64,000 nt of DNA from Alphaproteobacteria bacterium (lineage in GTDB: Bacteria > Pseudomonadota > Alphaproteobacteria > Micropepsales > Micropepsaceae). The stretch covers positions 1 through 64,000 of the forward strand of contig JAGWJY010000011.1 of the NCBI GenBank assembly GCA_028865545.1. The letters run 5' to 3'. Positions within the stretch are counted from its first letter, which is position 1, and each line of letters begins with the position of its first letter. Positions 9,032 to 37,600 of this stretch are shown here, piece by piece. The translations under genes were made by a program, and so were the position numbers. The notes beneath the pieces were generated by a model. It did not search any database and was not told the DNA's origin. It saw nothing but the letters and a program-made list of their open reading frames with translations.

Positions 9032-10394
9032 ATTCGATTCCCTCGCCGCACGCCTGATCCTGGCGGCCGCGGTGTGGACGGCGATCGGTCTGGCGGCGGG
9101 CGGTTTCGTGCTGTCGAACGCCTTCACCTCGGCGGAGCACGACAATTTCGACACTTCGCTGCAGGTCGATCTCGACGGCATGATCGCCGCCGCCGAGCCC
9201 GATCCCAACGGCGCGGTGTCGCTGCAGGAGCGTTTCCTCAACCGCCGCTTTGCCCGCGTTTACTCCGGTCTGTACTGGCAGATCGTGCCGGCCAAGAAAG
9301 GGGCGCCGGTGCAGATTTCCCATTCGCTGTTCGATACGCCGATCCATCTTCAGGAGTCGTCCGAGAGCCACGGGCTGATCTGGGGCTATGCCACCGGACC
9401 CGACAATCAGCGCCTGCGCGTGCTGGGGAGGCGCGTCTCCTTTCCCATCTCGGCCACGGCGCGGGTCGACGACAGCACGACCTACACGTTCATGGTGGGC
9501 GGCGATCTGTCGATCGTCGATCACGAGATTTCGGAATTCAACGGCACGCTGATCTGGTCCTTCGTGGTGCTGGTGTTTGGGCTGCTGCTGGCCATCTTCA
9601 TTCAGGTGCGCGTCGGGCTGATGCCGTTGCGGCGCCTGCGCGATGCCCTGGCGCGTATCCGGGATGGCTCGGCGCGGCGGCTGGAAGGAAAATACCCGGC
9701 CGAGATCGCGCCGCTCGCCACCGAACTCAACAGCCTGATCGAACATTCCGCCGAAGTGGTGGGCCGCGCCCGCACGCACGTTTCCAACCTCGCGCATTAT
9801 TTGAAGACCCCGCTGACGGTGCTCGCCAGCGAAGCCGAGGCGAATCCAAGTCCGCTCGGCGACGCGGTGAAGCGCCAGGTCGACGTCATGCGCCGTCAGG
9901 TCGATCACTATCTGGTGCGCGCGCGCGCCGCCGGGGCGCTCGACGTGCTGGGCAACAGCACCCAGGTAGGTCCCGTGCTGGAAGATCTGTCGCGCGTGCT
10001 TCAGCGCATCCATGAGCGGCGCGGCATCACGGTCGAGGTCGATTGCCCGCTCTCGCTGGCCTTTCGCGGCGATCGTCAGGACATCGAGGAGATGGCGGGC
10101 AATCTGATGGACAATGCCTGCAAATGGGCCCGCGCCACTGTCGCCGTGACGGCACGGAAGAGGCCGGATGGGCAACTCGAAATCGATGTGGAAGACGACG
10201 GTCCGGGATTGGCGCCGGAAGACCGTCCGCGGGTGCTGGAACGCGGTGAGAGGCTGGACGAAAGCGTGCCCGGCTCGGGGCTGGGACTGTCCATCGTGCG
10301 CGATATCGCCAAGCTCTACGGCGGCGGGCTGGAACTAGGGGAAAGCCGTCAGGGCGGATTGCGCGCCATTCTGATTTTGCCGGCAATTGGTTGA
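8976..10394 (+). CDS. Sensor histidine kinase (PhoQ-like, partner of the upstream regulator)
   Basis: This inner-membrane sensor of about 472 residues has TM1 at about 26-48, a periplasmic sensor region (49-190), TM2 at 191-213 and a HAMP-like linker. The phospho-acceptor motif NLAHYLKTPL has His274, with Lys replacing the usual Arg, as in PhoQ. The ATPase domain shows an N box NLMDNACKWA, G1 DDGPG and G2 GSGLGLSIV. The start is uncertain: GTG 8976 is the longest option, and TTG 8994 inside the regulator's last codons would remove six residues. It should phosphorylate the regulator at 8348-9031; the signal is unknown. Confidence 0.92.
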   Translation: MALAIALTIRQLLAKTAPRFDSLAARLILAAAVWTAIGLAAGGFVLSNAFTSAEHDNFDTSLQVDLDGMIAAAEPDPNGAVSLQERFLNRRFARVYSGLYWQIVPAKKGAPVQISHSLFDTPIHLQESSESHGLIWGYATGPDNQRLRVLGRRVSFPISATARVDDSTTYTFMVGGDLSIVDHEISEFNGTLIWSFVVLVFGLLLAIFIQVRVGLMPLRRLRDALARIRDGSARRLEGKYPAEIAPLATELNSLIEHSAEVVGRARTHVSNLAHYLKTPLTVLASEAEANPSPLGDAVKRQVDVMRRQVDHYLVRARAAGALDVLGNSTQVGPVLEDLSRVLQRIHERRGITVEVDCPLSLAFRGDRQDIEEMAGNLMDNACKWARATVAVTARKRPDGQLEIDVEDDGPGLAPEDRPRVLERGERLDESVPGSGLGLSIVRDIAKLYGGGLELGESRQGGLRAILILPAIG

Positions 10395-10484
10395 TTCAAA
10401 TGCGTAATTCTCGGCAACAGGCCGTTAAGAATAAATCGCTAATGTTTTCGGCGGATACCGTTTCCTTGGTCGCGCGGAACCTTG

Positions 10485-11882
10485 ATGCTGACATCTGAAA
10501 AAGCCGGACTTCTGCACGCTTTTCTCGGCAGCCTGCCGGCGAATGTCGCCGCGCGTCTTGCCAAGGCGGTCGAGGTCGACAGGCTGACCGAACGCGCCGG
10601 ACTGCCGCACGACGCGATCCTCGATGGTCTGCGTCCCGTGTTGCGCCGCGTTGAGGCGAGCGAGCGCACGCCGACGCCGCTTCGCCTGTTCTGCATGCCT
10701 TTCGAGGATCTGCTGATCAGTGGCGTGCGTCATGAAAAGCAGAAAGGGCGCATCGCGCGCGCCAGCGTTCCTCAGGTATGGAACTGGCTCGGCCAGACGC
10801 TGCTTCCCGACGAACTCCGCGCTTATCGCGAAGGTATCAAATCGCTCGTGCTGGCCTACAAGCTGGAAGAAGCGCTGGAATGCGCCAGCAAATTCTGGCC
10901 GATCGCCGGCGACGCGCTGCGCCAGGCCATCGCCAAGGACCGCAAGGGCGCCCGTCTGGCGCTTAACGGCGATCTCTTTCTCGGCGACGCGGAAGATATC
11001 GCGCTGCTGTTGTGCGCCGGCCCGACCATGGTCGAGATCCGGCAGATACTGCCCAAGCCGGTGCCCGTCCTGACGGATGAACTTCTCTGGAGCCTGCGCC
11101 GCATCTACGACCGCGTCAGCGAAAGCGTGCTTGATGCGGCGCCCTATGTGGCCGTGGTTGCCATGGCCCGCCTGGCCAAGCCCTGGGAGGCCTTGAAGCT
11201 CGCGCTGCTGATCACGCACCGCACGCAGGACACGCTGATTTCCTCGACCGACATGGGGCTGGCCGGAGACATCCTCTTTTCGCGGATGGAGGATTGTCGC
11301 ACTGCCATTCATGCGGCCCGCCATCCGATTTTCGATGTGCCGTCGCTGGTTCAGAATCTGACCTGCTTCACCGACATCTCCAGTGCGATCGTCAAGGAAG
11401 TGGAAATCCTGCGCAGCGGCAAATGGGGCCAACGGCTGCTCGCCGACCGCGCCGCGGTCGGTGCCGTCATGGATGGCTTCATGGAGCGGGCGCCGAAGGA
11501 AATCGCCGCCGCCCTGCCGACGCAGAAAAGCGGGTTTACCGGCGGAACGCGCATAGCAGACTTCTCCCGGGTCGCCGATCCGGACCGGGTCGACCGCGCG
11601 CTGCGCTATGCCGGTTTGATGGACGGTTGCCGCAGACTTGCGGCGGCGGCGTCGTTCGGCGCCAAGCTGCAGGACGCAATGGACGAAGCGACGCAGAATT
11701 TGCGCAGCTACAGCGAAGACCTGGTGAAGGAACTGCGCACCGTCGCGGGTCCGCGCCGCGAAAACGCCGAGCGGCAGTTCGAGCTCGCCATCGAGCTCAC
11801 CAGATTGCTGTTCAGCCCGGAAGATGCGGAGTATCTGCGCCGTCGCGGCAAGGCCGCGACGTCTTCGGCGGTTGCGGCGTAA
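10485..11882 (+). CDS. Large cytoplasmic protein of unknown function
   Basis: The 465-residue protein has no signal peptide or membrane segment and is predicted to be largely alpha-helical. It has a basic, polar N-terminal third with the segment LRLFCMPFEDLLI near 71-83. The helical C-terminus (about 380-450) is rich in Arg/Glu and may form a coiled coil. I recognise no named domain. It stands alone between the two-component operon and the CoA-transferase genes and ends 15 bases before the convergent CoA-transferase stop. ATG 10485 is used; the TTG just upstream adds one codon. Confidence 0.7.
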   Translation: MLTSEKAGLLHAFLGSLPANVAARLAKAVEVDRLTERAGLPHDAILDGLRPVLRRVEASERTPTPLRLFCMPFEDLLISGVRHEKQKGRIARASVPQVWNWLGQTLLPDELRAYREGIKSLVLAYKLEEALECASKFWPIAGDALRQAIAKDRKGARLALNGDLFLGDAEDIALLLCAGPTMVEIRQILPKPVPVLTDELLWSLRRIYDRVSESVLDAAPYVAVVAMARLAKPWEALKLALLITHRTQDTLISSTDMGLAGDILFSRMEDCRTAIHAARHPIFDVPSLVQNLTCFTDISSAIVKEVEILRSGKWGQRLLADRAAVGAVMDGFMERAPKEIAAALPTQKSGFTGGTRIADFSRVADPDRVDRALRYAGLMDGCRRLAAAASFGAKLQDAMDEATQNLRSYSEDLVKELRTVAGPRRENAERQFELAIELTRLLFSPEDAEYLRRRGKAATSSAVAA

Positions 11883-11897
11883 GCCAGAAACGTCAAA

Positions 11898-13082
11898 TCA
11901 CACAGCGCCTTCCTGCTTCAACGCCGCGATCTCCGCCGGCGAATAACCCAGTTCGCGCAGAACCGCGTCGGTGTGTTCGCCCAGCAGAGGCGGTCGCAGG
12001 CGTACGTCGCCCGGCGTCTCGGAAAGTTTGACCGGCGTCGCCGCCACCGTTGCCCGTTCGATTCCCGGGAACGCAATCGTCTGAAAGAAGTCGCAGGCCT
12101 TCACATGGGCATCGTCGAGTGCTTCACGCATCGAATTGACCGGCCCCGCCGGCACGCGCGCCGCTTCGAAGGCGGCCACGGCTTCGGCGCGCGTCTTGGT
12201 GGCGATCCAGGCGCCCAGCCTTTCGCTGATCAGCGCACTGTGATCCCCCCGCGTCTTGTCGCTGGCGAAACGCGGGTCGTCGATCCACGCTTCTGCGCCG
12301 ATCAGTTTGGCGACGCGGCGGAAAAGCGGATCGCCGTTCACGGCGACGACGATCCAGCCGTCGCGGGCACGGTAAAGGTCGGACGGCGCCGCGGTCTGGC
12401 TTCGGTTGTGCGTCGGCCGGCGTGAAAGCTTCAGCGCCTCCTCCTCGATCAGCATGGAGCTGAAGAAGGTGAGTGCGGTGCGCAGCAGCGCGCCTTCGAC
12501 CAGCTGGCCGCGCCCCGTCGTTTGGCGCGCGGCGAGCGCGGCGCCGACGCCCAGCGCCAGCAGCGATGCGGTCCCGAAATCGACCCAGGGCGCCGCCGAG
12601 CGCACCGGCTTGCCGTCCTCTCCGGAGAACCAGGCCACGCCGGACATCGCCTGGGCCACGCCGTCGAAGCCGACGCGGCCGGCATAGGGCCCGTCCAGCC
12701 CGAAAGCGGTCGCCACCGCGAGGATGGCGCGCGGATTGATGCGGCTGACGGTGTCGTAGTCGAGGCCCATCGCGGTCAGCGTCTCGCCGGGCAGATTGGC
12801 GACCACCACGTCGGCGGAGGCGATCAGCCTACGGACGACCTCGCGGCCGGCGTCGCACATCGGATCGAGGGTGAGGCTTTTCTTGTTCCGGTTCATCTGC
12901 AGGAAAAGCGCGCCTTCGCGGGCGTCCTCGCCGAGGGGAATCAGCGTACGATCCTCGCGCCCGTCGCGTTTTTCGACGCGAATCACGTCGGCGCCCAGAT
13001 CGCCCAGCAATGCGGCGCAGAAGGGCCCGGCGATATAACGCCCAAAATCGACCACACGGATGCCATCATAAGGTCCGGCCAT
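11898..13082 (-). CDS. CaiB/BaiF family class III CoA-transferase
   Basis: The 394-residue protein has the length and motifs of formyl-CoA:oxalate CoA-transferase relatives. These include an N-terminal IRVVDFGRYIAGPFCAALLG, LGADVIRVEKRDGRED, then FLQMNRNKKSLTLD and the GFDGVAQAMSGVAWFSG region. The Asp in APWVDFGTAS occupies the position expected for the catalytic aspartate that carries the CoA-thioester intermediate. It would move CoA between carboxylic acids; the acids are unknown. ATG 13082 is chosen because MAGPYDG is the normal start of the domain. It is divergent from the second CoA-transferase, with 73 bases between the starts, so the pair probably shares a control region. Confidence 0.9.
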   Translation of the reverse strand: MAGPYDGIRVVDFGRYIAGPFCAALLGDLGADVIRVEKRDGREDRTLIPLGEDAREGALFLQMNRNKKSLTLDPMCDAGREVVRRLIASADVVVANLPGETLTAMGLDYDTVSRINPRAILAVATAFGLDGPYAGRVGFDGVAQAMSGVAWFSGEDGKPVRSAAPWVDFGTASLLALGVGAALAARQTTGRGQLVEGALLRTALTFFSSMLIEEEALKLSRRPTHNRSQTAAPSDLYRARDGWIVVAVNGDPLFRRVAKLIGAEAWIDDPRFASDKTRGDHSALISERLGAWIATKTRAEAVAAFEAARVPAGPVNSMREALDDAHVKACDFFQTIAFPGIERATVAATPVKLSETPGDVRLRPPLLGEHTDAVLRELGYSPAEIAALKQEGAV

Positions 13083-26482: not shown

Positions 26483-26833
26483 CTAGCCGTGCCTGTTGTG
26501 TCCGGCGAGCCAGCCGATCAACGCGCCCGGGATTAGCATTACCAACCCGATCTCCCAGAACGGTTTCAGATCGAACTCGAACTTCGCCGAATCGCCGAAA
26601 TTGATCGAAGGGGTCGCGCCCAGCCACATGCCGGCCACCTGACAGACGAGGAAGAACACACCGAGCACCGCCAGAAACCATCCGGCCATTCTGGCGACGC
26701 CGCCCGCCTTGCCGGTCGCAAGCCGCAACGCCAACGCCAACACCGCGATCACCAACAGGGCGCCACCTACGTATACGAGCGGCATCATCAGCGGCATCAT
26801 TTTGATCATCAGGTCCAGCATGGTCTGCTTCAC
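26483..26833 (-). CDS. Small integral membrane protein, last gene of the FadL operon
   Basis: The 116-residue protein has three or four hydrophobic helices (about 8-33, 43-66 and 88-110) with Met-rich N-terminus KQTMLDLMIKMMPLMMPLV. GTG 26833 is preferred because GGGAGG lies at the right distance; ATG 26821 is an alternative. It shows no known family. It is the last of four minus-strand genes and starts 22 bases after the small DUF2147-like gene, so the two are likely co-transcribed. Role unknown, membrane-located. Confidence 0.7.
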   Translation of the reverse strand: MKQTMLDLMIKMMPLMMPLVYVGGALLVIAVLALALRLATGKAGGVARMAGWFLAVLGVFFLVCQVAGMWLGATPSINFGDSAKFEFDLKPFWEIGLVMLIPGALIGWLAGHNRHG

Positions 26834-26855
26834 GATATGCCTCCCGATCGCCGCA

Positions 26856-27239
26856 CTATTTCTGCCGGATAAAGTCGCCGGTGGCGCAGACGCCCGCATC
26901 GGTGCAGCCGTTCATGTGCCAGACATCGCCCTCAATCGTCATCTTGGTGTTATAGGTTTCGCCTGAAGCCGGGTGGCCGATCTTGCCGACAAAGCTGCCG
27001 TCCGGCTTTCCCTCGAGCTTCGAGCGGATCATCTCCATGCCGACGTTCTTCGGGCCGGCGATCACAATCGCACACAGACCTGCGCCCGACGGATTGGTTG
27101 TGCAGTCCTTGACCTGAACCGTGAAATCGGTCCACTTCCACGTACCGACCATTGCTTTCAGATCGGCGGCGTTTGCTGGCGCAGCGCCGGCGATCGCGGC
27201 AACAATGACGGCACCGGCAAACAATCTTCCCCAATGCAT
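26856..27239 (-). CDS. Small secreted protein, DUF2147-like
   Basis: After a signal peptide (MHWGRLFAGAVIVAAIAGAA, cleavage after ANAA near 26), about 100 residues resemble a compact DUF2147-like calycin fold. MVGTWKWTDFTVQV comes first, then FVGKIGHPASGETYNTKMTI, then GDVWHMNGC and a final FIRQK. Cysteines (KDCT, LCA, GC, VC) may make disulfides. ATG 27239 opens the signal peptide, which is why the longer forms are rejected. It lies in the same unit as the FadL gene, downstream of a strong hairpin. Function unknown, periplasmic. Confidence 0.72.
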   Translation of the reverse strand: MHWGRLFAGAVIVAAIAGAAPANAADLKAMVGTWKWTDFTVQVKDCTTNPSGAGLCAIVIAGPKNVGMEMIRSKLEGKPDGSFVGKIGHPASGETYNTKMTIEGDVWHMNGCTDAGVCATGDFIRQK

Positions 27240-27271
27240 GTGAATTCCCCCTTCCATGTTGGATGAGATGA

Positions 27272-27299
27272 TTGGAGAGAGGCGAACGCCTCTCTCCAA
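27272..27299. other. Perfect 13 bp stem hairpin between the FadL and DUF2147-like genes
   Basis: TTGGAGAGAGGCG and CGCCTCTCTCCAA flank only two bases (AA), so on either strand a very stable stem of about 12-13 bp forms (practical loop of four). It lies 11 bases after the FadL stop (minus strand). No U-tract follows on the minus strand, so it is more likely a 3' stabiliser or attenuator that sets the ratio of FadL to the genes after it than a full terminator. Confidence 0.6.
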
Positions 27300-27310
27300 G
27301 TCCGCGGATA

Positions 27311-28600
27311 TCAGAACTGGTAGCGATAGCCGATCGTAAAATCCATCTGGCTCATGGACAGACTTATCGTGCGGTTCGGATTTGCGCCGAACGGCGTGAC
27401 TTCGATACCGCTGACCGAATGTTCCGGCACGTAGAGCGCCGCAAAGTCAATCGTCGAATGCTCGGTGAGCTTGTGAGAGAAGCCCGCAGAGAAGTGATCG
27501 GTCACCACACCCGGCGCCATGATGTTGATCGTCACGTCGTCCGCATCGATCGGGTTGTTGTTATGCGCGTAGCCGGCCCTGAGTGTGAATTCGGTCGTCA
27601 GCTTCCATGCAACGCCGGCCGAAATCACGTCCACGTCGTGCCAGCCGAAGCCCGGGCCGTCGTCGGAACCGAAGAAGTCCGGATTGGTCATCGGATTGGA
27701 AACCGACTCCACGCCGCCGTAGAAAATATGCTTGTAATCGACCATCAGTGTGACATCGGGCGTCGCATCGAACGCCACGCCAGCGGTCACGGTGGCCGGA
27801 ATGTCAAAGGCGCCGCCGCCGGCAAACAGTCCCTTGTACTTCGAAAACTTAGTCATCCACATCGGCGTCGAGCCGCTGACGGCCAGGCGCAGATTCGGCG
27901 TCACGCTCCAGATCGCACCGGCCTTGATGCCGCCGCCATAGGAGTAGGAGATGCCGTTGTCGCTGAGATTGGCGGGGTCCGACGACAGTCCGTACATCCC
28001 AAACAAGCCGAGGCCGTTCGCGCTGAACATCTGAAGCACGAAAGTCGGCGCAACGCCCAGCGAGAGACTGCCGAACTTGAAGGCATAGCCGGCAGAAATG
28101 AACATCTGATTCAGGTTCACGCCGGTTTTGCCGCCGCAGAACACGCCCGAATATCCTGACGGACAGCTCGCGTTCGCCGCGGCCGGATAATCGGTGTTCA
28201 TACCGCCATTGCCATACATCGCGATGCCCCATGACGAGTTCGCATCGATCGGATGACTGTAGGCAACGCCCGGAACCAGGAAGTAGTTGTTCCTGCTCTC
28301 CACCGTTCCAGACGTCATCCCGCCCGGTGCAACGAAGCCCGGACCCGTGGCCGTGTATTTGCGCCACGGCGAAAACAGAGACACACCGACCTCGAGCTCT
28401 TCGCTCACCGAGACAAGTCCGGCCGGGTTCAACGCCAGCGTCATGGCATCTTCCGGATTGGCTATGCCGGTGCCGGCGAGCGCCTTTTGCGGGGCGCTGT
28501 AGCCGGGCATGAAATAACCTTCGGTTGCCTGCGCCGGAACGGCCAGCAACCCGCACGCAAATACCGCCGTCGTTGCCGCCAGCATCGCAGTTATTCTCAT
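27311..28600 (-). CDS. FadL/OmpP1/TodX-type outer membrane channel
   Basis: The 429-residue precursor has a signal peptide ending in QA-T (about 24), then the FadL-family hatch opening TEGYFMPGYSAPQKALAGTG and PEDAMTLALNPAGL. Alternating beta strands end in the C-terminal aromatic motif (MDFTIGYRYQF, final Phe), as in outer membrane barrels. Such channels take up hydrophobic compounds: fatty acids, aromatics, and possibly sulfur species. ATG 28600 follows AAGGGGAAACAA and is preferred to ATG 28615 five codons upstream. It is the second gene of a minus-strand unit that starts near 28926, next to the predicted persulfide-responsive operators. I infer, but cannot show, that it serves uptake linked to the Hdr genes. 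Confidence 0.85.
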   Translation of the reverse strand: MRITAMLAATTAVFACGLLAVPAQATEGYFMPGYSAPQKALAGTGIANPEDAMTLALNPAGLVSVSEELEVGVSLFSPWRKYTATGPGFVAPGGMTSGTVESRNNYFLVPGVAYSHPIDANSSWGIAMYGNGGMNTDYPAAANASCPSGYSGVFCGGKTGVNLNQMFISAGYAFKFGSLSLGVAPTFVLQMFSANGLGLFGMYGLSSDPANLSDNGISYSYGGGIKAGAIWSVTPNLRLAVSGSTPMWMTKFSKYKGLFAGGGAFDIPATVTAGVAFDATPDVTLMVDYKHIFYGGVESVSNPMTNPDFFGSDDGPGFGWHDVDVISAGVAWKLTTEFTLRAGYAHNNNPIDADDVTINIMAPGVVTDHFSAGFSHKLTEHSTIDFAALYVPEHSVSGIEVTPFGANPNRTISLSMSQMDFTIGYRYQF

Positions 28601-28611
28601 TTGTTTCCCCT

Positions 28612-28926
28612 TCATGGTTCTTTTCCTTGTGTCCGGTGAACGAGCATCCGCTCTCTCAAGCGGCTGTCTTCCATGCCCGCCGAATTGCCCTTGGCCAGGC
28701 CCTGGGCGATGTCCGTGATAGAAAGCAGCACCTCCGCAAAGCCGTTCGGCGTGGTGCGGAAGCGCGACAGAAACGAGAGACTGCAAGCGAAAATCATCGC
28801 GACTACCGCCGCCGCGACGACATCGATCGCGGCGGGAGCGACACTCTTGGCAAGCGTAACGTCGATCATCAGCCTGAAGATCAGGAGACTGGCGAAAGGC
28901 AGGATGACTCCGTGTCTCCGTTTCAT
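28612..28926 (-). CDS. Small membrane protein at the head of the FadL operon
   Basis: The 104-residue open frame starts at ATG 28926 (MKRRHGVILPFASLLIFRLM) and contains two hydrophobic helices (about 6-24 and 33-54), then a soluble tail with ITDIAQGLAKGNSAGM. It ends 11 bases before the FadL start. It is directly downstream of the ATTC/GAAT repeats at 28965-28998. No family is recognised and the ribosome site is weak; it may be a real small membrane protein or a leader frame. Confidence 0.5.
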   Translation of the reverse strand: MKRRHGVILPFASLLIFRLMIDVTLAKSVAPAAIDVVAAAVVAMIFACSLSFLSRFRTTPNGFAEVLLSITDIAQGLAKGNSAGMEDSRLRERMLVHRTQGKEP

Positions 28927-28964
28927 CGCGCCATCGGCCCCGAGGCCGTGCCATGTATTCGGAC

Positions 28965-28981
28965 ATTCGGTTATCGCGAAT
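28965..28981. promoter_or_regulatory. Inverted repeat ATTC-N9-GAAT, putative operator site A (FadL unit)
   Basis: ATTC at 28965-28968 and GAAT at 28978-28981 are spaced by nine bases. It is followed immediately by a second copy. I recall that SqrR/BigR-type regulators bind inverted repeats of the ATTC...GAAT kind, usually with about eight bases between half-sites. It lies about 40 bases upstream of the small membrane gene's ATG (28926), as expected of an operator over a leftward promoter. Confidence 0.5.
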
Positions 28982-28998
28982 ATTCGAATAATATGAAT
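28982..28998. promoter_or_regulatory. Inverted repeat ATTC-N9-GAAT, putative operator site B (FadL unit)
   Basis: ATTC at 28982-28985 and GAAT at 28995-28998, directly after site A with a 17-base period. The centre also contains TATTCGAATA, a perfect palindrome. The tandem arrangement could give cooperative binding by the ArsR regulator at 29527. Confidence 0.5.
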
Positions 28999-29526
28999 GT
29001 ACCCTGCTCTGTTTAGGGTCCGCCTGAACGTTCCGCTAGGGAGCGTTTTGTCGCGCATTTCTCGGTCCGCGCTTTTTGCCGGGAAAAGTCAGCGCTATTG
29101 CGACATCTAGGCGACAAGTGGCGTATATACGTAATGCGAGATCGCACCTTAATCTCAATACGTCGGTTGGCTCGGAATGTTCGCAAGGCGTTCAGGAATC
29201 CGGTCGTGGCGGATGTTCGGCGGATATCCGCCCACTTCCGCGAAGTCGTCAGCGGCGACCGTGCCGCATGGTCGCCGCGTCTGGCGCCTAGTCGACGCAA
29301 GCCGCTTTTGCGGCAACGAGGAACAGCGGAAACACGACCGGTGTTCTCGGATCTGGCCTTCAGACGTCGCCGTTCTGTGCGCAAAATTCCGTATGCGGCA
29401 TCACATCCGCGCCCGGTACTGGTGATACTTCTGATACATTCTGGCCCGCAGGGTCAAACTTCGCTAATGACGGAGCTCGACTTGGTTACAGCGCGAACGG
29501 ATGTTTGAGGGCGGGAGCACAAGATA

Positions 29527-29979
29527 ATGGCGCCGAGAATTGAGCACGCGGATCTCGCAGTACTGGAGCGCAACGCCGAGCGCGCCTCTGCCCTTCTGCG
29601 CATCATCGGAAGCAAATGGCGGCTGCTCGTTGTCTGCCAGCTCGTCACCGGTGAAAAGACCGTCGGTGAGCTTGAGCGTGTCACAGGACTCCGCCAATCG
29701 GCTCTTTCGCAGCACCTGATGGTGTTGCGCCACCGGGAATTGGTGAACACCCGCCGCGTCGCCCAGAGCATCTACTATTCGCTGAACAGCGCCGTCGTCA
29801 CGGACCTGCTTCTAACGCTTCACAAGCATTATTGCGGAGAGACCGAGGACGTGCGTTCGGCTTCAAGCCGGCGGCCTTTGAAGAAGTCCTTGGCTGAGAC
29901 AAAGCACCGCGAATCCGGGCGAAAGCACGCTGGCAAACTGGTTCGTCTGATTCCAAAGGCTTCGAGCGCAAAAAGATAG
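29527..29979 (+). CDS. ArsR/SmtB-family regulator of SqrR/BigR (persulfide-sensing) type
   Basis: The 150-residue protein has a winged-helix core: LLRIIGSKWRLLVVCQLV, VGELERVTGLRQSALSQHL (recognition helix) and NTRRVAQSIYYSLNS (wing). Cys37 (LLVVC) and Cys103 (HKHYC) are 66 residues apart. This is the spacing of the cysteine pair (Cys41/Cys107) that senses persulfides in Rhodobacter SqrR. Unlike metal-sensing ArsR proteins, no CxC site is seen. A Lys/Arg-rich tail (104-150) is an oddity. It lies between the leftward FadL unit and the rightward tusA-hdr unit, so it likely represses both until sulfane sulfur accumulates. GGGAGCACAAGATA precedes ATG 29527. Confidence 0.85.
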   Translation: MAPRIEHADLAVLERNAERASALLRIIGSKWRLLVVCQLVTGEKTVGELERVTGLRQSALSQHLMVLRHRELVNTRRVAQSIYYSLNSAVVTDLLLTLHKHYCGETEDVRSASSRRPLKKSLAETKHRESGRKHAGKLVRLIPKASSAKR

Positions 29980-30364
29980 CCGAATTTCCCGACGCACCTG
30001 TGCGGGCGTTTGAGGTCCGGACGACGGGATGCGGGAAGCAGCAGCAAGCATTCTTGCGTCCGCCGCACTGTTCGAGCAATCAACGCATCGCTTAAGACCG
30101 CTACCGACAAAATCGTTAGCGTGCATCTGCTCGCTGAGCTGCTGAGAACTTTGTGCAGATTTAGCTGCGAGCGGAACTCAAACAAACTTGCTGCGCTTAT
30201 CGCATCTGCTGAGAAGACGCATGCGACGAAGTGTAATGGGTCGGTTCCACATTTTGAGGTGTATATATTCGAGTGTTTGAATATTAACCCGCATCAAATC
30301 ATCGGCGTCGACTGACGCGCTCATGCGAAGTCTCAGCCAAGCCGGGTTTGCAGGGATGAGAGAC
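29980..30364. other. 385-base spacer and promoter region of the tusA-hdr unit
   Basis: It contains no recognisable protein frame. It ends with the perfect inverted repeat at 30265-30284 and the purine-rich GGGATGAGAGAC ribosome site of tusA. A TTGAGG (30255-30260) and TTGAAT 17 bases later could be the promoter core that the operator covers, but this is only a weak match. Confidence 0.5.
30265..30284. promoter_or_regulatory. Perfect inverted repeat ATATTC-N8-GAATAT, putative SqrR-type operator of tusA-hdr
   Basis: ATATTC (30265-30270) and GAATAT (30279-30284) are exact inverse complements around an eight-base spacer, giving the ATTC-N8-GAAT pattern I recall for SqrR/BigR operators. It lies about 80 bases upstream of the tusA ATG, over the likely promoter. 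The nearby regulator gene at 29527 encodes a matching SqrR-type protein, which supports the assignment. Confidence 0.65.
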
Positions 30365-30616
30365 ATGACAATCGATTTGAAATCGGTCACGCCAGCTAAG
30401 ACCGTCGACGCCCGGGGAACCGCGTGTCCCGGCCCGCTGCTCGAAGCCAAACGCGCGATGGCCGCGGTCCCTCTGAACGGGATCCTGGAAGTCTGGTCGT
30501 CCGACGAAGGGTCCACCGAGGACATTCCGCTGTGGTCCAAGAAGATCGGGCACGAGTACCTCGGCAACGTCGAGGAGCCCGGTTATTGGCGGGTGTTTGT
30601 CAAACGGGGCAAGTGA
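30365..30616 (+). CDS. tusA: TusA-family sulfur carrier protein
   Basis: The 83-residue protein has the TusA signature ARGTACPGPLLEAKRAM with active Cys21 in CPGP, then LNGILEVWSSDEGSTEDIPL and WRVFVKR. TusA proteins carry a persulfide on this cysteine and pass it to other enzymes. ATG 30365 is chosen for the GGGATGAGAGAC spacing. The stop overlaps the MvhD-like start by one base (TGATG), so translation is coupled. Placed before Hdr genes, it is expected to deliver sulfane sulfur to the Hdr complex, as TusA does in sulfur oxidisers with sHdr genes. Confidence 0.92.
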   Translation: MTIDLKSVTPAKTVDARGTACPGPLLEAKRAMAAVPLNGILEVWSSDEGSTEDIPLWSKKIGHEYLGNVEEPGYWRVFVKRGK

Positions 30617-31020
30617 TGGCTGCCGACGGCACAGCGCCGCGCGAACCGCGCATTCTGGTGTTCTCGACCAACCCGATCTCAGATCCTGGGATCGACTTGG
30701 CGGGCAGCGCGCATCTCAACTATTCGCCAGGGGTGACCGTGATCTCCGTTCCCTGCTCGTCGGGCGTCAGACCGGACTGGCTGGTGCATGCGGTCGAGAA
30801 AGGGTTCGACGGCGTATTCGTCGCGGCCGACGGCGGTGATTGCGCCTTGGTGCCCGATTGCACCGCCAAGACCGCAGCAGCGGTGGAGCGCGCCCAGAAG
30901 GCGCTCACCGACCACGGCCAGGACCCCCGCAGACTCAAGATGGGAGCGATCTGCTCGGTTTGTGCGGAACCATTCGTCAGTCACATGAAGCAGTTCGCCG
31001 ACACCTTACGCAAACTATGA
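30616..31020 (+). CDS. MvhD/FlpD-like electron-transfer protein (diverged)
   Basis: The 134-residue protein aligns with the [2Fe-2S] MvhD/FlpD family over VPCSSGVRPDWLVHAVEKGF, FDGVFVAADGGDC and the C-terminal LKMGAICSVCAEPF. The family normally has two N-terminal cysteines in an NWCSY-like stretch; here that part reads STNPISDPGIDLAGS and has none. Remaining cysteines are 47, 76, 82, 113 and 116. MvhD passes electrons between a hydrogenase (or another dehydrogenase) and HdrA. With no hydrogenase genes near, it may instead connect HdrA to other carriers, or be a structural remnant. It is 7 bases before the HdrA start. Confidence 0.75.
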   Translation: MAADGTAPREPRILVFSTNPISDPGIDLAGSAHLNYSPGVTVISVPCSSGVRPDWLVHAVEKGFDGVFVAADGGDCALVPDCTAKTAAAVERAQKALTDHGQDPRRLKMGAICSVCAEPFVSHMKQFADTLRKL

Positions 31021-31027
31021 GGATGAC

Positions 31028-33730
31028 GTGGATTACGATGCACTCATCGTAGGAGCTGGCGCAGCGGGCATGCAGTCCGCCCTGACACTCGGCGACATGG
31101 GCTTCCGTGTGTTGCTTGTGGAAAAGGAGCCGAGCATCGGCGGCAGAATGATCCTGCTGAGCAAGGTCTTTCCCACTCTGGACTGCGCGAGCTGTATTTC
31201 GACGCCCAAGATGGCGGCCACCTCGCATCATCCCAACATCACGTTGATGACTTCTTCCGAGGTGGATGAGATTCAACGCAGCCCGGACGGAGGCTTCATC
31301 GCGCGCGTGCGCAAAAACCCGACCTTTGTCGATCCGGCGGCCTGCACCGGCTGCGGCGATTGCGAGCGCGAATGTACCGTGTCGGTGCCCGACCGCTTCA
31401 ACTTCGACCTGGTCGCTTCCCGCGCGATCCACATCGCGTTTCCCCAGGCAGTGCCGAAGAAGGCGACGATCGAAAGCGCCGGCAGTTCGCCGTGCTCCTT
31501 CAACTGTCCGGGCGGCGTCCAGGCACACGGTTATGTTTCGCTGGTGCGCGCCGGCCGGTATGAAGAAGCGTTCCGCCTGCATATGGAAGACGCGCCGCTG
31601 CCGGGTGTGCTGAGCCGTGCCTGCTACGCGCCTTGCGAGGATCAGTGCACACGTGGAGAGGTCGAGGGCAAAATCGGAATCCGCGCCATCAAGCGCTTCA
31701 TGGTCGATTACTATTACGACCGGCATCCCGAGCCGGAATACGGCGTACCGGCCGACCGCAACGGCAAGCGAGTCGCCATTGTCGGCTCGGGGCCGGCTGG
31801 CCTATCCGCGGCTTATTTCCTGGCCCGACGCGGATACGCGGTGACGATCTTCGAAGCCGCGCCCGAGGTGGGCGGCATGCTGCGCTACGGTATTCCGCCT
31901 TATCGCCTGCCGCGAACGGTGCTTGAGCGCGATCTGAAGAACATCACGGCGCTCGGCGTCGAAATCATGACCGGCAGTCCTATCACCGGCGTCGCCGGTC
32001 TGAAGGCGCAAGGGTTCGATGCGGTGTTCGTCGCGGTCGGAACCATGAATGCCCAGCGGCTCGACGTCCCGGGCGTCGATCTCGAAGGCGTCACCGATCC
32101 GATGAGCTTCCTCAAGGCGGCGAATACGGACGCAATCGACCTCGGCGGAAAACGCGTGGCGATCTTTGGCGGCGGCAATGTCGCCATGGATTCGGCGCGC
32201 ATGGCGCTGCGCTGCGGCGCACAGGAAGTGGCGATCTACTACCGGCGCGGCCGCAGCGAAATGCCTGCGCACGATTGGGAGGTGCAGGCGGCGCTGGAAG
32301 AGGGCGTCGTGCTGCGCGAACTGACAAACCCGACGCGCTTCGTCGGGCAGAACGGCAAGCTGAAGGCCGTCGAGGTGCAGGCGACCAGGCTCGGCGCCCC
32401 CGACGCCAGCGGCCGCCGCCGGCCCGAACCCGTTATCGGATCGGAACACCAGCATGAGGCGGATTTGGCGATCCTGGCGATCGGTCTGCGCCCGAGCACC
32501 GATCCTTTCGCCAACGAGCTGAAATGCCGTCGCGATGAAACCCTGGTGGCCGATCCCGAAACGCTGGCGACCTCGATTGAAGGTGTGTTTGCCGGTGGTG
32601 ATGCCGTAACCGGTCCTTCGATGATCATCGCGGCCATCGGCCAGGGAAAGCGCGCTGCATTCCACATAGACCGCCAACTGCGCGGGGTGTCCGAGCCGGC
32701 CGTGTTCGACGCGCGGCTGCCCGCGGTCGAACATGACAAGGTCATGGAACGCGGCGAGGTTAGCGCGCGCGCTCCGGCGAAGATGCTGGAACTGACGGCG
32801 CAGGAACGGGCCCGCTCGACCGCGGAAATCGAGATGACGCTCAGCGAGGAAGAATCCCGCGCTGAGGCCGGGCGCTGCATGGACTGCGGGATTTGTTCGC
32901 AATGCCGTCAGTGCGTCGCCACCTGTCCGGCGGACGCGATCCGCTTCGACATGAGGGCCGAGGAGACGACCGTGAAGGTCCGCTCGGCGCTGCTGGCCAC
33001 CGGGTTCAAGTTCTTCGATCCCGGGCGCAAGCCTCTCTACGGATATGATCGCTACGCCAACGTGATCACCTCGATGCAGATGGACCGTCTGCTGGCGCCC
33101 ACGCGTCCGTATAATTCGCTGCTGCGTCCCTCCGACGGCAAGGCGCCAAGCAGCATCGCCTACGTCATGTGCACGGGTTCGCGCGACTGCACGGTCGACA
33201 ACCGCCTCTGTTCGCGCGTCTGCTGCATGTACTCGATCAAGCAGGCGCAGCTCATCACCGGCGCGCTGCCGCTGGCCGACGTGACCATCTACTACATCGA
33301 CATCCGCGCCTTCGGGAAGGGTTACGAGGAGTTCTATAAGCAGGCCGAAGGCATGGGCATCCACTTCGTCAAGGGGCGCGTCGCCAAGATCGAGGAGACG
33401 GACGACAGCGATCTGCTGCTGAAATACGACGACATCGTCGGCGGCACGGGACAGCAGGTGGCACGGCATGATCTCGTGGTGTTGTCGATCGGGCTCACCG
33501 CCAATCCCGCGGCTTTCGGAATCGTAAAGGGCGCCGATGTGGAGGCCGACGCGTTCAACTATGTCCGCGAGATCGACGAGGACCTCGAACCCGGATGCAC
33601 GACGCAAAAGGGCGTGTTTGTCGCCGGAACGGCTGCCGGGATACGCGACATCCCCGACACCATCGTGCATGCGAGCGCGGCCGCGTCGCAGGTGGCCGCA
33701 TACCTGCGCACTGTTAAGGAGGTCCGATGA
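31028..33730 (+). CDS. HdrA-like flavoprotein with inserted GltD/NfnB-type NAD(P)H module
   Basis: The 900-residue protein starts at GTG 31028 after GAGGATGAC. Order: HdrA FAD site GAGAAG (9-14) and the family cysteine motif LDCASCIST (51-59), then a 4Fe-4S motif C106, C109, C112, C116. The insert resembles the small subunit of glutamate synthase: CSFNCPGGVQAHGY at 156, SRACYAPCEDQCTRG at 197, GSGPAG at 253 and GGGNVA at 381. It ends in a cysteine cluster (617, 620, 623, 626, 629, 633), followed by the HdrA core (MCTGSRD, CSRVCCMYSIKQAQL). HdrA bifurcates or transfers electrons. The insert should let this subunit exchange electrons with NADH or NADPH directly. It overlaps the next HdrA gene by 4 bases. 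Confidence 0.88.
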   Translation: MDYDALIVGAGAAGMQSALTLGDMGFRVLLVEKEPSIGGRMILLSKVFPTLDCASCISTPKMAATSHHPNITLMTSSEVDEIQRSPDGGFIARVRKNPTFVDPAACTGCGDCERECTVSVPDRFNFDLVASRAIHIAFPQAVPKKATIESAGSSPCSFNCPGGVQAHGYVSLVRAGRYEEAFRLHMEDAPLPGVLSRACYAPCEDQCTRGEVEGKIGIRAIKRFMVDYYYDRHPEPEYGVPADRNGKRVAIVGSGPAGLSAAYFLARRGYAVTIFEAAPEVGGMLRYGIPPYRLPRTVLERDLKNITALGVEIMTGSPITGVAGLKAQGFDAVFVAVGTMNAQRLDVPGVDLEGVTDPMSFLKAANTDAIDLGGKRVAIFGGGNVAMDSARMALRCGAQEVAIYYRRGRSEMPAHDWEVQAALEEGVVLRELTNPTRFVGQNGKLKAVEVQATRLGAPDASGRRRPEPVIGSEHQHEADLAILAIGLRPSTDPFANELKCRRDETLVADPETLATSIEGVFAGGDAVTGPSMIIAAIGQGKRAAFHIDRQLRGVSEPAVFDARLPAVEHDKVMERGEVSARAPAKMLELTAQERARSTAEIEMTLSEEESRAEAGRCMDCGICSQCRQCVATCPADAIRFDMRAEETTVKVRSALLATGFKFFDPGRKPLYGYDRYANVITSMQMDRLLAPTRPYNSLLRPSDGKAPSSIAYVMCTGSRDCTVDNRLCSRVCCMYSIKQAQLITGALPLADVTIYYIDIRAFGKGYEEFYKQAEGMGIHFVKGRVAKIEETDDSDLLLKYDDIVGGTGQQVARHDLVVLSIGLTANPAAFGIVKGADVEADAFNYVREIDEDLEPGCTTQKGVFVAGTAAGIRDIPDTIVHASAAASQVAAYLRTVKEVR

Positions 33731-35442
33731 GCGCTCAACGACTCGGCGTGTTCATCTGCCATTGCGGAGGCAACATCTCCGACTACGTCGACGTGGAGAA
33801 GGTGCGCGCCGCGACCGAAGCGTTGCCCGGCTGCACGGTGGCAAAGACCTTCATGTTCGCATGCTCGGACGCCGCGCAGCAGGAGATGATGGAGGAAATC
33901 CGCAAGGAAAAGCTCGACGGCATGGTCATCGCGTCCTGCTCGCCGAAGCTGCATCTCGAGACCTTCCGCGCCATGGCGAAGCGTGCCGGGCTGAACCCGC
34001 ATATGTACTCCCACGTGAACGTCCGCGAGCAGTGCTCCTGGGCCCATCGGCACGATGTGGGCAAGGCGAGCGAAAAGGCCACGCGCCTGGTACGGGCCGG
34101 CGCCGCCCGCGCGGCATTGGGCAGACCACTTGAGAACATCCGGGTCGAGACCGTACCGGCCGTTCTGGTCGTCGGTGCCGGCGTGACGGGCCTGCGGGCC
34201 GCGATTGCTCTTTCCGACCAGGGCTTGTCGGTGCATCTGGTGGAGCGTGAGGCGGAAGTCGGCGGGCGGGTGCGTACGCTGGGCAAACTCTTTCCGTCGG
34301 GCCGGCCCGGTGGCGAACTTGTTGCCAGCTTGCGCGAACGTCTGGCCGGCCGCGAGAACGTCGTCGTCTATACCAACGCTGAACTGGTCGAGAAGAGTGG
34401 CAGCGCCGGCCGCTTCGAGGTCAAGGTGCGCTCGGGCGAGAACACCTTTTCGCTCAAGGTGGGCGCGATTGTCGCCGCCACCGGCTTCGCGCCTTATGCG
34501 CCGCAGCCGGGCGAATTCGGTCATGGGCTGCCGACCGTGGTCACGCTGCCTGAGTTCAACGAAATGCTGACGGCGTCGCGCGGAAACCTACGCGTCAACG
34601 GCCGCGACGTGCACACGATCGCCTACATATATTGTGTCGGTAGCCGCCAGCCCGAGGGCAACACCTATTGCTCGCGCTATTGCTGCACGGCCGGCGTGCA
34701 CGCGGCCATACAGGCGCAAGAGATCGATCCGGCGATCAATCAGTTCCATTTGTTCCGCGACATGCGGACTTACGGAAAGAACGAGCTTCTCTACGAGGAG
34801 GCACGGCACAAAGGGTCGGTGTTCATCCGGTACGGTGAAAGCGAACCGCCGGAAGTGGAACAGGAAGGCGAAGGCTTGGTCGTGCGCGTTCGCGACGAGC
34901 TTTCGGGCGGCGACACCATCGAGATTCCGGCTGATCTGGTGGTGCTGGTTACCGGCATGGTGGCCGGCTCCAACGAGCGGCTCCAGAACCTGCTCAAACT
35001 GCCGACGGGCCCGGGTGGGTTCTTCAACGAAATCCATCTCAAGCTGCGGCCGGTGGAGACAGTGGTGGACGGCGTGTTCATTGCCGGCGCGGCGCAAGCA
35101 CCGAAAAACTTGGCGGAAAGCGTCGCCTCCTCGCTGGCGGCAACGGCGCAATGCTCGGCCATGCTGCTGAAGGGTTACCTCGACCGGGCGCCGCTGGTTG
35201 CGAAAGTCGATGCCGATGCCTGCACGTGGTGCGAAGTGTGCACCGAGGCATGTCCCTATGACGGCACCATCATGAAGGTCGAACACGAGGGCAAAGAGGT
35301 CGCCGAAGTGCGGGCTGAATTGTGCAAGGGCTGCGGCGCATGCGCCTCGGTCTGTCCGTCGGCGGCAATCGACGTCGAAGGATACACCAATGCCCAGGTG
35401 ACGGCGATGATCGACGCTCTCGCCGCGGAGGTGACGACATGA
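33727..35442 (+). CDS. hdrA: HdrA-family subunit (second copy), with two C-terminal 4Fe-4S motifs
   Basis: The 571-residue protein has the HdrA start RLGVFICHCGGNISDYVDVE (Cys11, Cys13), FAD-binding VLVVGAGVTGLRAA near 147, YCVGSRQPEGNTYCSRYCCT and the DMRTYGKNE segment. The C-terminus has two 4Fe-4S sets: C499, C502, C505, C509 and C533, C536, C539, C543. The length is close to canonical HdrA. ATG 33727 overlaps the stop of the upstream HdrA, and the downstream small gene overlaps this stop (ATGA). A second HdrA in the same unit suggests a heteromeric HdrA pair. Confidence 0.9.
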   Translation: MSAQRLGVFICHCGGNISDYVDVEKVRAATEALPGCTVAKTFMFACSDAAQQEMMEEIRKEKLDGMVIASCSPKLHLETFRAMAKRAGLNPHMYSHVNVREQCSWAHRHDVGKASEKATRLVRAGAARAALGRPLENIRVETVPAVLVVGAGVTGLRAAIALSDQGLSVHLVEREAEVGGRVRTLGKLFPSGRPGGELVASLRERLAGRENVVVYTNAELVEKSGSAGRFEVKVRSGENTFSLKVGAIVAATGFAPYAPQPGEFGHGLPTVVTLPEFNEMLTASRGNLRVNGRDVHTIAYIYCVGSRQPEGNTYCSRYCCTAGVHAAIQAQEIDPAINQFHLFRDMRTYGKNELLYEEARHKGSVFIRYGESEPPEVEQEGEGLVVRVRDELSGGDTIEIPADLVVLVTGMVAGSNERLQNLLKLPTGPGGFFNEIHLKLRPVETVVDGVFIAGAAQAPKNLAESVASSLAATAQCSAMLLKGYLDRAPLVAKVDADACTWCEVCTEACPYDGTIMKVEHEGKEVAEVRAELCKGCGACASVCPSAAIDVEGYTNAQVTAMIDALAAEVTT

Positions 35443-35702
35443 ACGACGCTGCACCCCGCGATTTCGCCGAAGTTCTGCGCGACGAATGGATTATGAAGGA
35501 TCGCATTGCCGCCGCGTTGATCGATGGCCCCAAGACGATCCCTGAAATCGCGGAGGCGCTCGGCGCGCCAAGCCGGGAAGTCACCCAGTGGGTGATGGCG
35601 ATGCGGCGCTTCGGCAAGCTCGAAGAGATGCCCAAGCCCAAAGCGGACGATTACTTCCAATATAAGCTCACGGAAGGACAAAAGGATGGTGTCGCGCGTT
35701 AA
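35439..35702 (+). CDS. Winged-helix-type small protein of the Hdr unit
   Basis: The 87-residue protein reads as a compact helix-turn-helix domain: KDRIAAALIDGPKTIPEIAE and APSREVTQWVMAMRRFGKLE, the usual order helix, turn, recognition helix and wing. It is fused in no way to the other Hdr proteins; its ATG overlaps the HdrA stop and its end overlaps the hdrC start by 17 bases. Similar small helix-turn-helix proteins may occur in other Hdr loci; I am not certain. A role as a DNA-binding regulator or a structural adapter is possible; no cysteines are present, so no redox centre. Confidence 0.7.
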   Translation: MNDAAPRDFAEVLRDEWIMKDRIAAALIDGPKTIPEIAEALGAPSREVTQWVMAMRRFGKLEEMPKPKADDYFQYKLTEGQKDGVAR

Positions 35703-36015
35703 TCCCGGGCTCCGCCGCGAGATTGCCAAGCTCGGCACCGATGAGCTTGGCAACAGCGAGTTCAACGCCGAAGCGTGCTTCAACTGCGGTACGTGCACGG
35801 CGCTCTGTCCGCTGGGCTACCAGATTCTTCCCCGCAAACTGTTCCACGAAGTCAGGCTCGGGCTTGAAGACAAGATCCGCGCCAGCATCCCGCAGATCTT
35901 CTCCTGCCTCTTGTGTCGCATGTGCGAAGAGAACTGTCCGCAGGGGGTCAAGATCACGGAAAACATGCGCATCCTCCGTCACATGATCAACCGGCAAGAA
36001 TTTGGCCTGAAGTAG
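35686..36015 (+). CDS. hdrC: HdrC-like iron-sulfur subunit
   Basis: The 109-residue protein has two CX2CX2CX3CP motifs: C31, C34, C37, C41 (CFNCGTCTALCP) and C74, C77, C80, C84 (CLLCRMCEENCP). This is the HdrC pattern for two 4Fe-4S clusters that bridge HdrA and HdrB. Start ATG 35686 follows GGAAGGACAAAAGG, 17 bases inside the preceding gene. It fits the C-subunit slot directly before HdrB. HdrC proteins occur only in complexes with HdrB, supporting the assignment. Confidence 0.92.
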   Translation: MVSRVNPGLRREIAKLGTDELGNSEFNAEACFNCGTCTALCPLGYQILPRKLFHEVRLGLEDKIRASIPQIFSCLLCRMCEENCPQGVKITENMRILRHMINRQEFGLK

Positions 36016-36024
36016 GAAGATCGT

Positions 36025-37038
36025 ATGCCGCTACCGATTGCACCCATTCTGGGAATTTTCGCCGATAACGTACGAAAACGCGGCAGTGTTCTGCCGTTGT
36101 CGAAACGAACGGCGACGGGTTGGGCCCGCGGGCTCAATCTGCCGCGCGGCGGTGAGACGGTTCTCTACACCGGGCACATGTATCAAATGGTGCCCGCCAT
36201 CGACGCCATGTCGGCGCAGCTGGCCTTGCTCGAGAACTCGTTCCTGACCCGGTTCTTCGGCATTGGCCGGTTTATGAACAAGTTCGTCAGCCTGTCCTTC
36301 TTCATGGGCCTTACCGCCTCGTCGAAAAAAATGCGCCATTCCGATCAGGTGTTGCGCGACATCGTCGAGCTGTTGCGCGGCGCGGGGGTCGAATTCGGCT
36401 ACCTGTATGAAGACGAGTTCTACGCCGGCGCTCTGCTTTATGATGATGGGCTGGATGACGCCTTCGGCGAACACGCTCGCCGCGTGACGGCGCATCTGAA
36501 GAAGCTGGGAGTGCGGCGCCTGATCACCGTGGACCCGCACACCACCAAGATGTTCCGTCAGGCGTACCCGCATTTCGTCAAAGACTTCGATATCGAGGTC
36601 AAGAACTACCTGGAAGTGCTGGCTGAAGCGCATCCCGAGGCCGTGGAAGCGGTCAACGGCGAAGTCGTGGTTCACGATTCCTGTGTCTATGCGCGCTACG
36701 AGGATATTTGCGAGCAACCCCGCGAACTGTTGCGGGCGGCGGGACTGTCCGTGCGGGAACCCAAGCAGTCCAGGAAGGCGACGCATTGCTGCGGCGGACC
36801 GTTGGAGTCGCTATTCCCGGCCGAGGCGCATCGCATTTCCGGAAACCGCGTGGATCAACTCGAAGCCGAGGGGAAGAACGTGGTCACCATGTGCCCGTTC
36901 TGCTGGGTGAACCTCAGCAAGGCCGCCGGCAACAGGCTCGTCATCAACGATATCGCGAGCACCCTGGCCGCCGTCCGCCGGCAAGTCTCGACGCGGAAAC
37001 CGGCGCCGATCGCTACGCAAGCCATGGCAGCGGAATAG
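36025..37038 (+). CDS. hdrB: HdrB-like subunit with one CCG cluster site
   Basis: The 337-residue protein has the HdrB/CCG domain. Its C-terminal half has Cys220, Cys255-Cys256, Cys290, Cys293, an exact CX34CCX33CXXC noncubane cluster motif, plus Cys229. The N-terminal half keeps the fold outline (VLYTGHMYQMVP, LITVDPHTTKMF) but has no cysteine before residue 220, so the first site is absent. HdrB carries the site where disulfide or persulfide chemistry happens. With a single usable site it should bind only one noncubane cluster. GGAAG precedes ATG 36025, 9 bases after the HdrC stop. Confidence 0.88.
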   Translation: MPLPIAPILGIFADNVRKRGSVLPLSKRTATGWARGLNLPRGGETVLYTGHMYQMVPAIDAMSAQLALLENSFLTRFFGIGRFMNKFVSLSFFMGLTASSKKMRHSDQVLRDIVELLRGAGVEFGYLYEDEFYAGALLYDDGLDDAFGEHARRVTAHLKKLGVRRLITVDPHTTKMFRQAYPHFVKDFDIEVKNYLEVLAEAHPEAVEAVNGEVVVHDSCVYARYEDICEQPRELLRAAGLSVREPKQSRKATHCCGGPLESLFPAEAHRISGNRVDQLEAEGKNVVTMCPFCWVNLSKAAGNRLVINDIASTLAAVRRQVSTRKPAPIATQAMAAE

Positions 37039-37075: not shown

Positions 37076-37600
37076 ATGGATAAGACGGAAAATCCCGAAC
37101 AGGAAGCGGCAACACAGACACCGGCTCCGGTAAACGACGGCAAGACCATCCTGGTTTTTTCCGATGATATGGACAAGGCGTTTGCCGCGTTCGTCATCGC
37201 CAATGGGGCTGCCCTGATGGACTGCCCGACGACGATGTTTTTCGCTTTCTGGGGCCTGAACGTCTTGCGCAAGCCGGCAAGCTCGAAAGGGAAGGACCTG
37301 CTGGCCAAGATGTTCGGGGCCATGATGCCCAAGGGCGCGAACAAGCTCAAGCTGTCGAAGATGCACATGATGGGCATGGGCAGCGCCATGATGAAATACG
37401 TCATGAAGCGGAAGAACGTTCAATCCCTGCCGCAAATGATCGCCACCGCACGGGATCAGGGTGTGCGAATGATCGCCTGCGGGATGTCCATGGACGTCAT
37501 GGGGATCAGGAAGGACGAGTTTATCGACGGCGTCGAAGTGGGCGGTGTCGTCACCTTCCTCGACGCCGCGGAGAAGTCTAACGTAACCTTGGTCTTCTGA
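37076..37600 (+). CDS. DsrE2-type (DrsE_2 family) sulfur-transfer protein
   Basis: The 174-residue protein matches DsrE2/DrsE_2 with KTILVFSDDMDKAFAAFVIA, TMFFAFWGLNVLRK and the MIACGMSMDVMGI active region. Cys135 is the likely persulfide-carrying residue; Cys50 is a second candidate. DsrE2 proteins exchange persulfide with TusA. It lies 37 bases downstream of HdrB and closes the unit, so TusA and DsrE2 bracket the Hdr genes. Members of the subfamily are often membrane-associated; the Met-rich stretch MFGAMMPKGANK and onward is compatible with that but no strong membrane helix is visible. Confidence 0.88.
   Translation: MDKTENPEQEAATQTPAPVNDGKTILVFSDDMDKAFAAFVIANGAALMDCPTTMFFAFWGLNVLRKPASSKGKDLLAKMFGAMMPKGANKLKLSKMHMMGMGSAMMKYVMKRKNVQSLPQMIATARDQGVRMIACGMSMDVMGIRKDEFIDGVEVGGVVTFLDAAEKSNVTLVF

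Follow-up and report, generated by a model that had tools for sequence, protein, structure and literature searches.

A perfect ATATTC-N8-GAATAT inverted repeat lies at 30265–30284 of the 64,000-nucleotide stretch of DNA analyzed here (the window). It is very probably the operator of the ArsR-type regulator encoded at 29527–29979, which would repress the following tusA-hdr operon until sulfane sulfur accumulates. Evidence for this comes from the sequence of the repeat and its single occurrence in the genome, from conservation of its arms within a diverged intergenic region, and from its linkage to a regulator of the SqrR/BigR/HlyU type that carries two conserved cysteines.

Sequence and conservation of the putative operator

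The 20-mer (ATATTCGAGTGTTTGAATAT) has two exact 6-bp arms around an 8-bp spacer, ATATTC-GAGTGTTT-GAATAT, and its T/T flanks add no further pairing. The arsR stop (29979) precedes it by 285 bp and the tusA ATG (30365) follows 80 bp after its end, in agreement with an earlier note on this DNA that had described an exact repeat about 80 bases before the unit and a regulator about 300 bases away. That note had also named ATTC-N8-GAAT as the operator pattern of SqrR/BigR; the pattern is real, being the SqrR site deduced in Rhodobacter capsulatus according to PMC9774250, and the repeat has both half-sites and the same 8-bp spacing upstream of its presumed target. No sigma-70-like promoter was recognized around 30265–30284.

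The 385-bp gap between arsR and tusA was shuffled 2000 times with its dinucleotides preserved. None of the shuffled sequences contained the 20-mer and 0.8% contained the core ATTC-N8-GAAT; 11% had a perfect 6-8-6 repeat, and 63% had some 6-bp repeat with a spacer of 3–12. The whole window holds 26 perfect 6-8-6 repeats and two core matches (0.97 expected), the second of which (49076) lies inside a histidine-kinase-like ORF. A genome scan for the core, proposed in the earlier note, returned 24 matches without enrichment; at least 15 fall within codon-biased ORFs, one is in a tRNA gene, and the full ATAT flanks are absent from all the other matches scanned. The core was therefore rejected as a genome-wide regulon finder, while the complete 20-mer is single copy in the genome. 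Exact arms and core are thus weak evidence by themselves.

It is comparison with relatives that makes the site convincing. The same-genus genome G062 has the same order arsR-tusA-flpD-hdrA, with identities to the window of 84–86% (arsR), 80% (tusA), 62% (flpD), and 62% (hdrA). Identity between the arsR-tusA gaps of G062 and the window is 54%, yet 12 of 12 arm bases are kept, along with five of the eight spacer bases, and the only one of 383 possible 6-8-6 placements in the gap to be fully conserved is the repeat itself. The distance to tusA is 90 bp in G062. A search of 96 family genomes for the 20-mer gave 22 sites, four of which lie around arsR in the three genomes whose ortholog is at least 77% identical; in that much DNA, ~0.0003 would be expected from the background rate with total genome length rounded. 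These sites are not independent, since those in sister genomes are inherited, and the conservation is shallow because the pair of arsR and site is present in only three close genomes. G041, with an arsR ortholog of 69% identity, has no good copy of the site nearby, and its cluster runs off the contig end. Cross-phylum tusA-flpD-hdr loci with an ArsR nearby by tblastn contained the core in no case, and the locus closest by FlpD has neither an ArsR match nor the motif. Two ArsR homologs from a class-wide sample (46–52% identity) have unrelated gene surroundings.

The regulator, its paralog, and alternative readings

The regulator gene (29527–29979, + strand) encodes a 150-aa ArsR-type winged-helix protein with a match to Pfam HTH_5 (PF01022). 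Its best PDB relatives are HlyU, YgaV, BigR, SqrR, and NolR at ~1e-14 or better, with metal sensors at 1e-7 or worse. Cysteines C37 and C103 are invariant across orthologs and a paralog; via the paralog, they line up with the cysteines of SqrR in the second and last helices. The recognition helix (RQSALSQ) is close to that of SqrR (RQAAVSQ), and the gene adjoins sulfur-metabolism genes (tusA, hdr, and dsrE2 downstream), as is established for ArsR regulators of sulfane sulfur (PMC10451225, PMC12423496). Judged by its sequence, the protein belongs to the SqrR/BigR/HlyU group and has the two sensor cysteines. Against the NCBIfam BigR equivalog (NF040642), it scores 74.3 bits, below the cut-off of 155. 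A decayed second arsR copy lies upstream of the live gene at 29086–29412, with counterparts in G040 and G062 (tblastn E values of 4e-6 in the window, 9e-10 in G040, and 8e-5 in G062), which suggests an old tandem duplication.

The genome encodes another ArsR of this group on contig C100, where its gene is flanked by those for an sqr-type oxidoreductase and a rhodanese; the protein is 40% identical to the ArsR at 29527–29979. Upstream of this gene, at approximately 1442–1463 of that locus, is a perfect TATATAC-N8-GTATATA repeat (TATATACG-N6-CGTATATA) that is conserved in G040 and G059. ATATAC-N8-GTATAT and ATATTC-N8-GAATAT share their geometry and differ by one base per half-site, and the recognition helix of the C100 paralog reads RDSTVSQ. 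We hypothesize that the helix difference between the paralogs causes the half-site difference. A separate palindrome (ATTCCGTGTACGGAAT) was observed on contig C6 at 155–170 of its locus, upstream of a DegP/HtrA-like protease gene; this 16-mer is also present in G040 and G041.

That the repeat is a functionless chance match is very unlikely. Perfect arms are common enough in the gap shuffles and in the window, and the core shows no genome-wide enrichment, but such a match would hardly keep every arm base in a diverged gap or recur as a 20-mer beside arsR in each of the three genomes that have a close ortholog. Chance does not explain the repeat, because the 20-mer is both unique in the genome and conserved at this locus in relatives, and the conservation largely refutes that reading. 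It is extremely unlikely that the repeat works at the RNA level, forming a hairpin between arsR and tusA that acts as attenuator or terminator. The repeat can pair as RNA, but the leader folds no better than its shuffles (z -0.05), neither a T-run nor a terminator call is present, Rfam gave no match, and a second copy in relatives precedes a divergent operon rather than lying in a leader between arsR and tusA. The hairpin or terminator was rejected on the fold score, the T-run and terminator searches, and Rfam.

The repeat could instead be a real operator for a different regulator, such as the C100 paralog or another dimeric factor. In favor of this, the genome has another ArsR of the group, and overlapping binding is known for the paralogs sHdrR and SoxR in Hyphomicrobium (PMC12423496). 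It is nonetheless unlikely, because the paralog has its own conserved repeat with the different half-site ATATAC, and the 20-mer tracks the presence of the neighboring arsR ortholog. An operator for the neighboring ArsR is the reading that we favor, and the SqrR/BigR-type operator put forward in the earlier note is supported by conservation together with the regulator; exact arms and proximity, on which it had been based, would not have sufficed by themselves.

The presumed target operon and a putative second site before the FadL operon

The presumed target operon begins with a tusA sulfur carrier gene (30365–30616; PF01206, 1.3e-21) and continues on the + strand with a flpD/mvhD-like iron-sulfur subunit (30616–31020; PF02662, 7.8e-27), an HdrA-like flavoprotein with a glutamate-synthase-type (NfnB-like) insertion (31028–33730; NCBIfam HdrA2, PRK12771), a second HdrA-like protein (33727–35442; NCBIfam HdrA2, 461 bits), an 88-aa protein (35436–35702), an HdrC-like protein (35686–36015; TIGR03290, 4.4e-15), an HdrB-like CCG-domain protein (36025–37038; PF02754, 3.7e-12), and finally a DsrE2-like sulfur carrier (37076–37600; PF13686, 9.9e-57, with NF047629 under its cut-off). 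The 88-aa protein has no family match and is kept in the cluster across phyla, as seen by tblastn at many loci; the run tusA-flpD-hdrA-hdrA-88aa-hdrC-hdrB-dsrE2 is found in many phyla. It has a different gene order from the sHdr-LbpA cluster (hdrC1B1A-hyp-hdrC2B2 with lbpA beside a regulator) and lacks lbpA. No convincing dsrA was found in the genome; G041 differs. On contig C74 of G041 (9870–12775), the 69% arsR ortholog is the last gene of a run that is cut by the contig end and otherwise comprises hdrC-like, hdrB-like, unknown, and GcvH-like (LbpA-like) genes.

On the other side of arsR, a divergent operon encodes a small membrane protein (28612–28926, - strand), placed by synteny with G062 and G040 and matching no Pfam family, followed by a FadL/TodX-type outer-membrane transport protein (27311–28543, - strand; PF03349, 3.6e-19) that we presume to be co-regulated. 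In G062 and G040, the further 20-mer sites at the arsR locus belong to an identical extended palindrome with 9-bp arms (ATATTCGAATGTTCGAATAT) that lies 41–43 bp before this operon. Window positions 28963–29000 align with it as a degenerate second putative operator, overlooked in the earlier note, which had described only the tusA-side repeat. Here ACATTC-N9-GAATAT overlaps ATATTC-N9-GAATGT, so that half-sites are kept at N9 spacing with one mismatch each. The FadL orthologs of G040 and G062 are 81% identical and occupy the same locus. In G041, dsrE2-like and tusA-like genes are immediately followed by two FadL relatives, an arrangement that supports a putative sulfur role of FadL in the genus; a literature search for a FadL-sulfur link found nothing.

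Other elements were observed in this region. Beyond fadL (26483–27299, - strand), a DUF2147-like protein is encoded together with a small membrane protein, and this pair recurs beside the arsR ortholog in G041 and beside the fadL operon in G062. Between the FadL-side site and arsR, the window shares with G040 and G062 an unchanged 26-bp block (29031–29056; TTCCGCTAGGGAGCGTTTTGTCGCGC), which was not found elsewhere in the 96 family genomes at up to three mismatches. As + strand RNA it forms part of a 9-bp hairpin.

Comparison with known regulators and the proposed switch

Release of the repressor by sulfane sulfur has been reported for SqrR, SoxR, and sHdrR (PMC10451225, PMC12423496). The regulator described here resembles SqrR of R. 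capsulatus in ArsR subfamily, cysteine positions, and recognition helix, and the half-site and spacing agree with the deduced SqrR site. It differs in its target, a TusA-FlpD-HdrA-type operon, and in the extension of the half-site to ATATTC; the SqrR structure is also outranked by HlyU, YgaV, and BigR in sequence score. sHdrR and SoxR of Hyphomicrobium denitrificans are likewise two-cysteine repressors of an alphaproteobacterium linked to sulfur-oxidation genes, and their bound fragments hold inverted or direct repeats, for which our literature search found no letter-level motif. They control the shdr-lbpA and sox clusters, from which the operon here differs in gene order, in its FlpD subunit, and in lacking lbpA, and sHdrR-like regulators form no coherent clade (PMC12423496). 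YgaV of Escherichia coli belongs to the same ArsR group and has a footprint with motifs similar to ATTC-N8-GAAT (PMC9774250), but it controls ygaVP and respiratory genes, and the katG region that it binds lacks the motif. BigR of Xylella and Acinetobacter shares the fold and cysteines and is the best NCBIfam match, but the score stays below the equivalog cut-off.

By analogy with these systems, we propose that an ArsR dimer would occupy both ATATTC half-sites with its recognition helices and, while bound, keep the tusA-flpD-hdrA-hdrA-hdrC-hdrB-dsrE2 operon off. Build-up of sulfane sulfur (persulfide or polysulfide) would create a sulfur bridge between C37 and C103, upon which the bridged dimer would let go and the operon would be transcribed. 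The same ArsR probably also acts at the second site before the divergent FadL operon. More tentatively, and at somewhat less than even odds, a single SqrR-type repressor with sites on both sides of its gene might switch the cytoplasmic TusA-FlpD-HdrA sulfur-transfer system and the divergent FadL/TodX outer-membrane channel operon together, joining the processing of sulfur to its uptake through the outer membrane, with the paralogs in the genus kept apart by ATATTC versus ATATAC half-sites matched by recognition-helix changes. This type of switch is already known; the target set and the probable co-regulation of FadL are its unusual part.

The little-studied Hdr-type sulfur operon gains a testable candidate operator. 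A conserved unit of regulator, operator, and hdr genes is useful because two-cysteine regulators rarely adjoin shdr genes (PMC12423496). Through the second site, a FadL-type channel would be tied in a concrete way to sulfur metabolism, and comparing the two paralogs and their respective half-sites would be a natural way to test operator discrimination in the SqrR/BigR/HlyU group.
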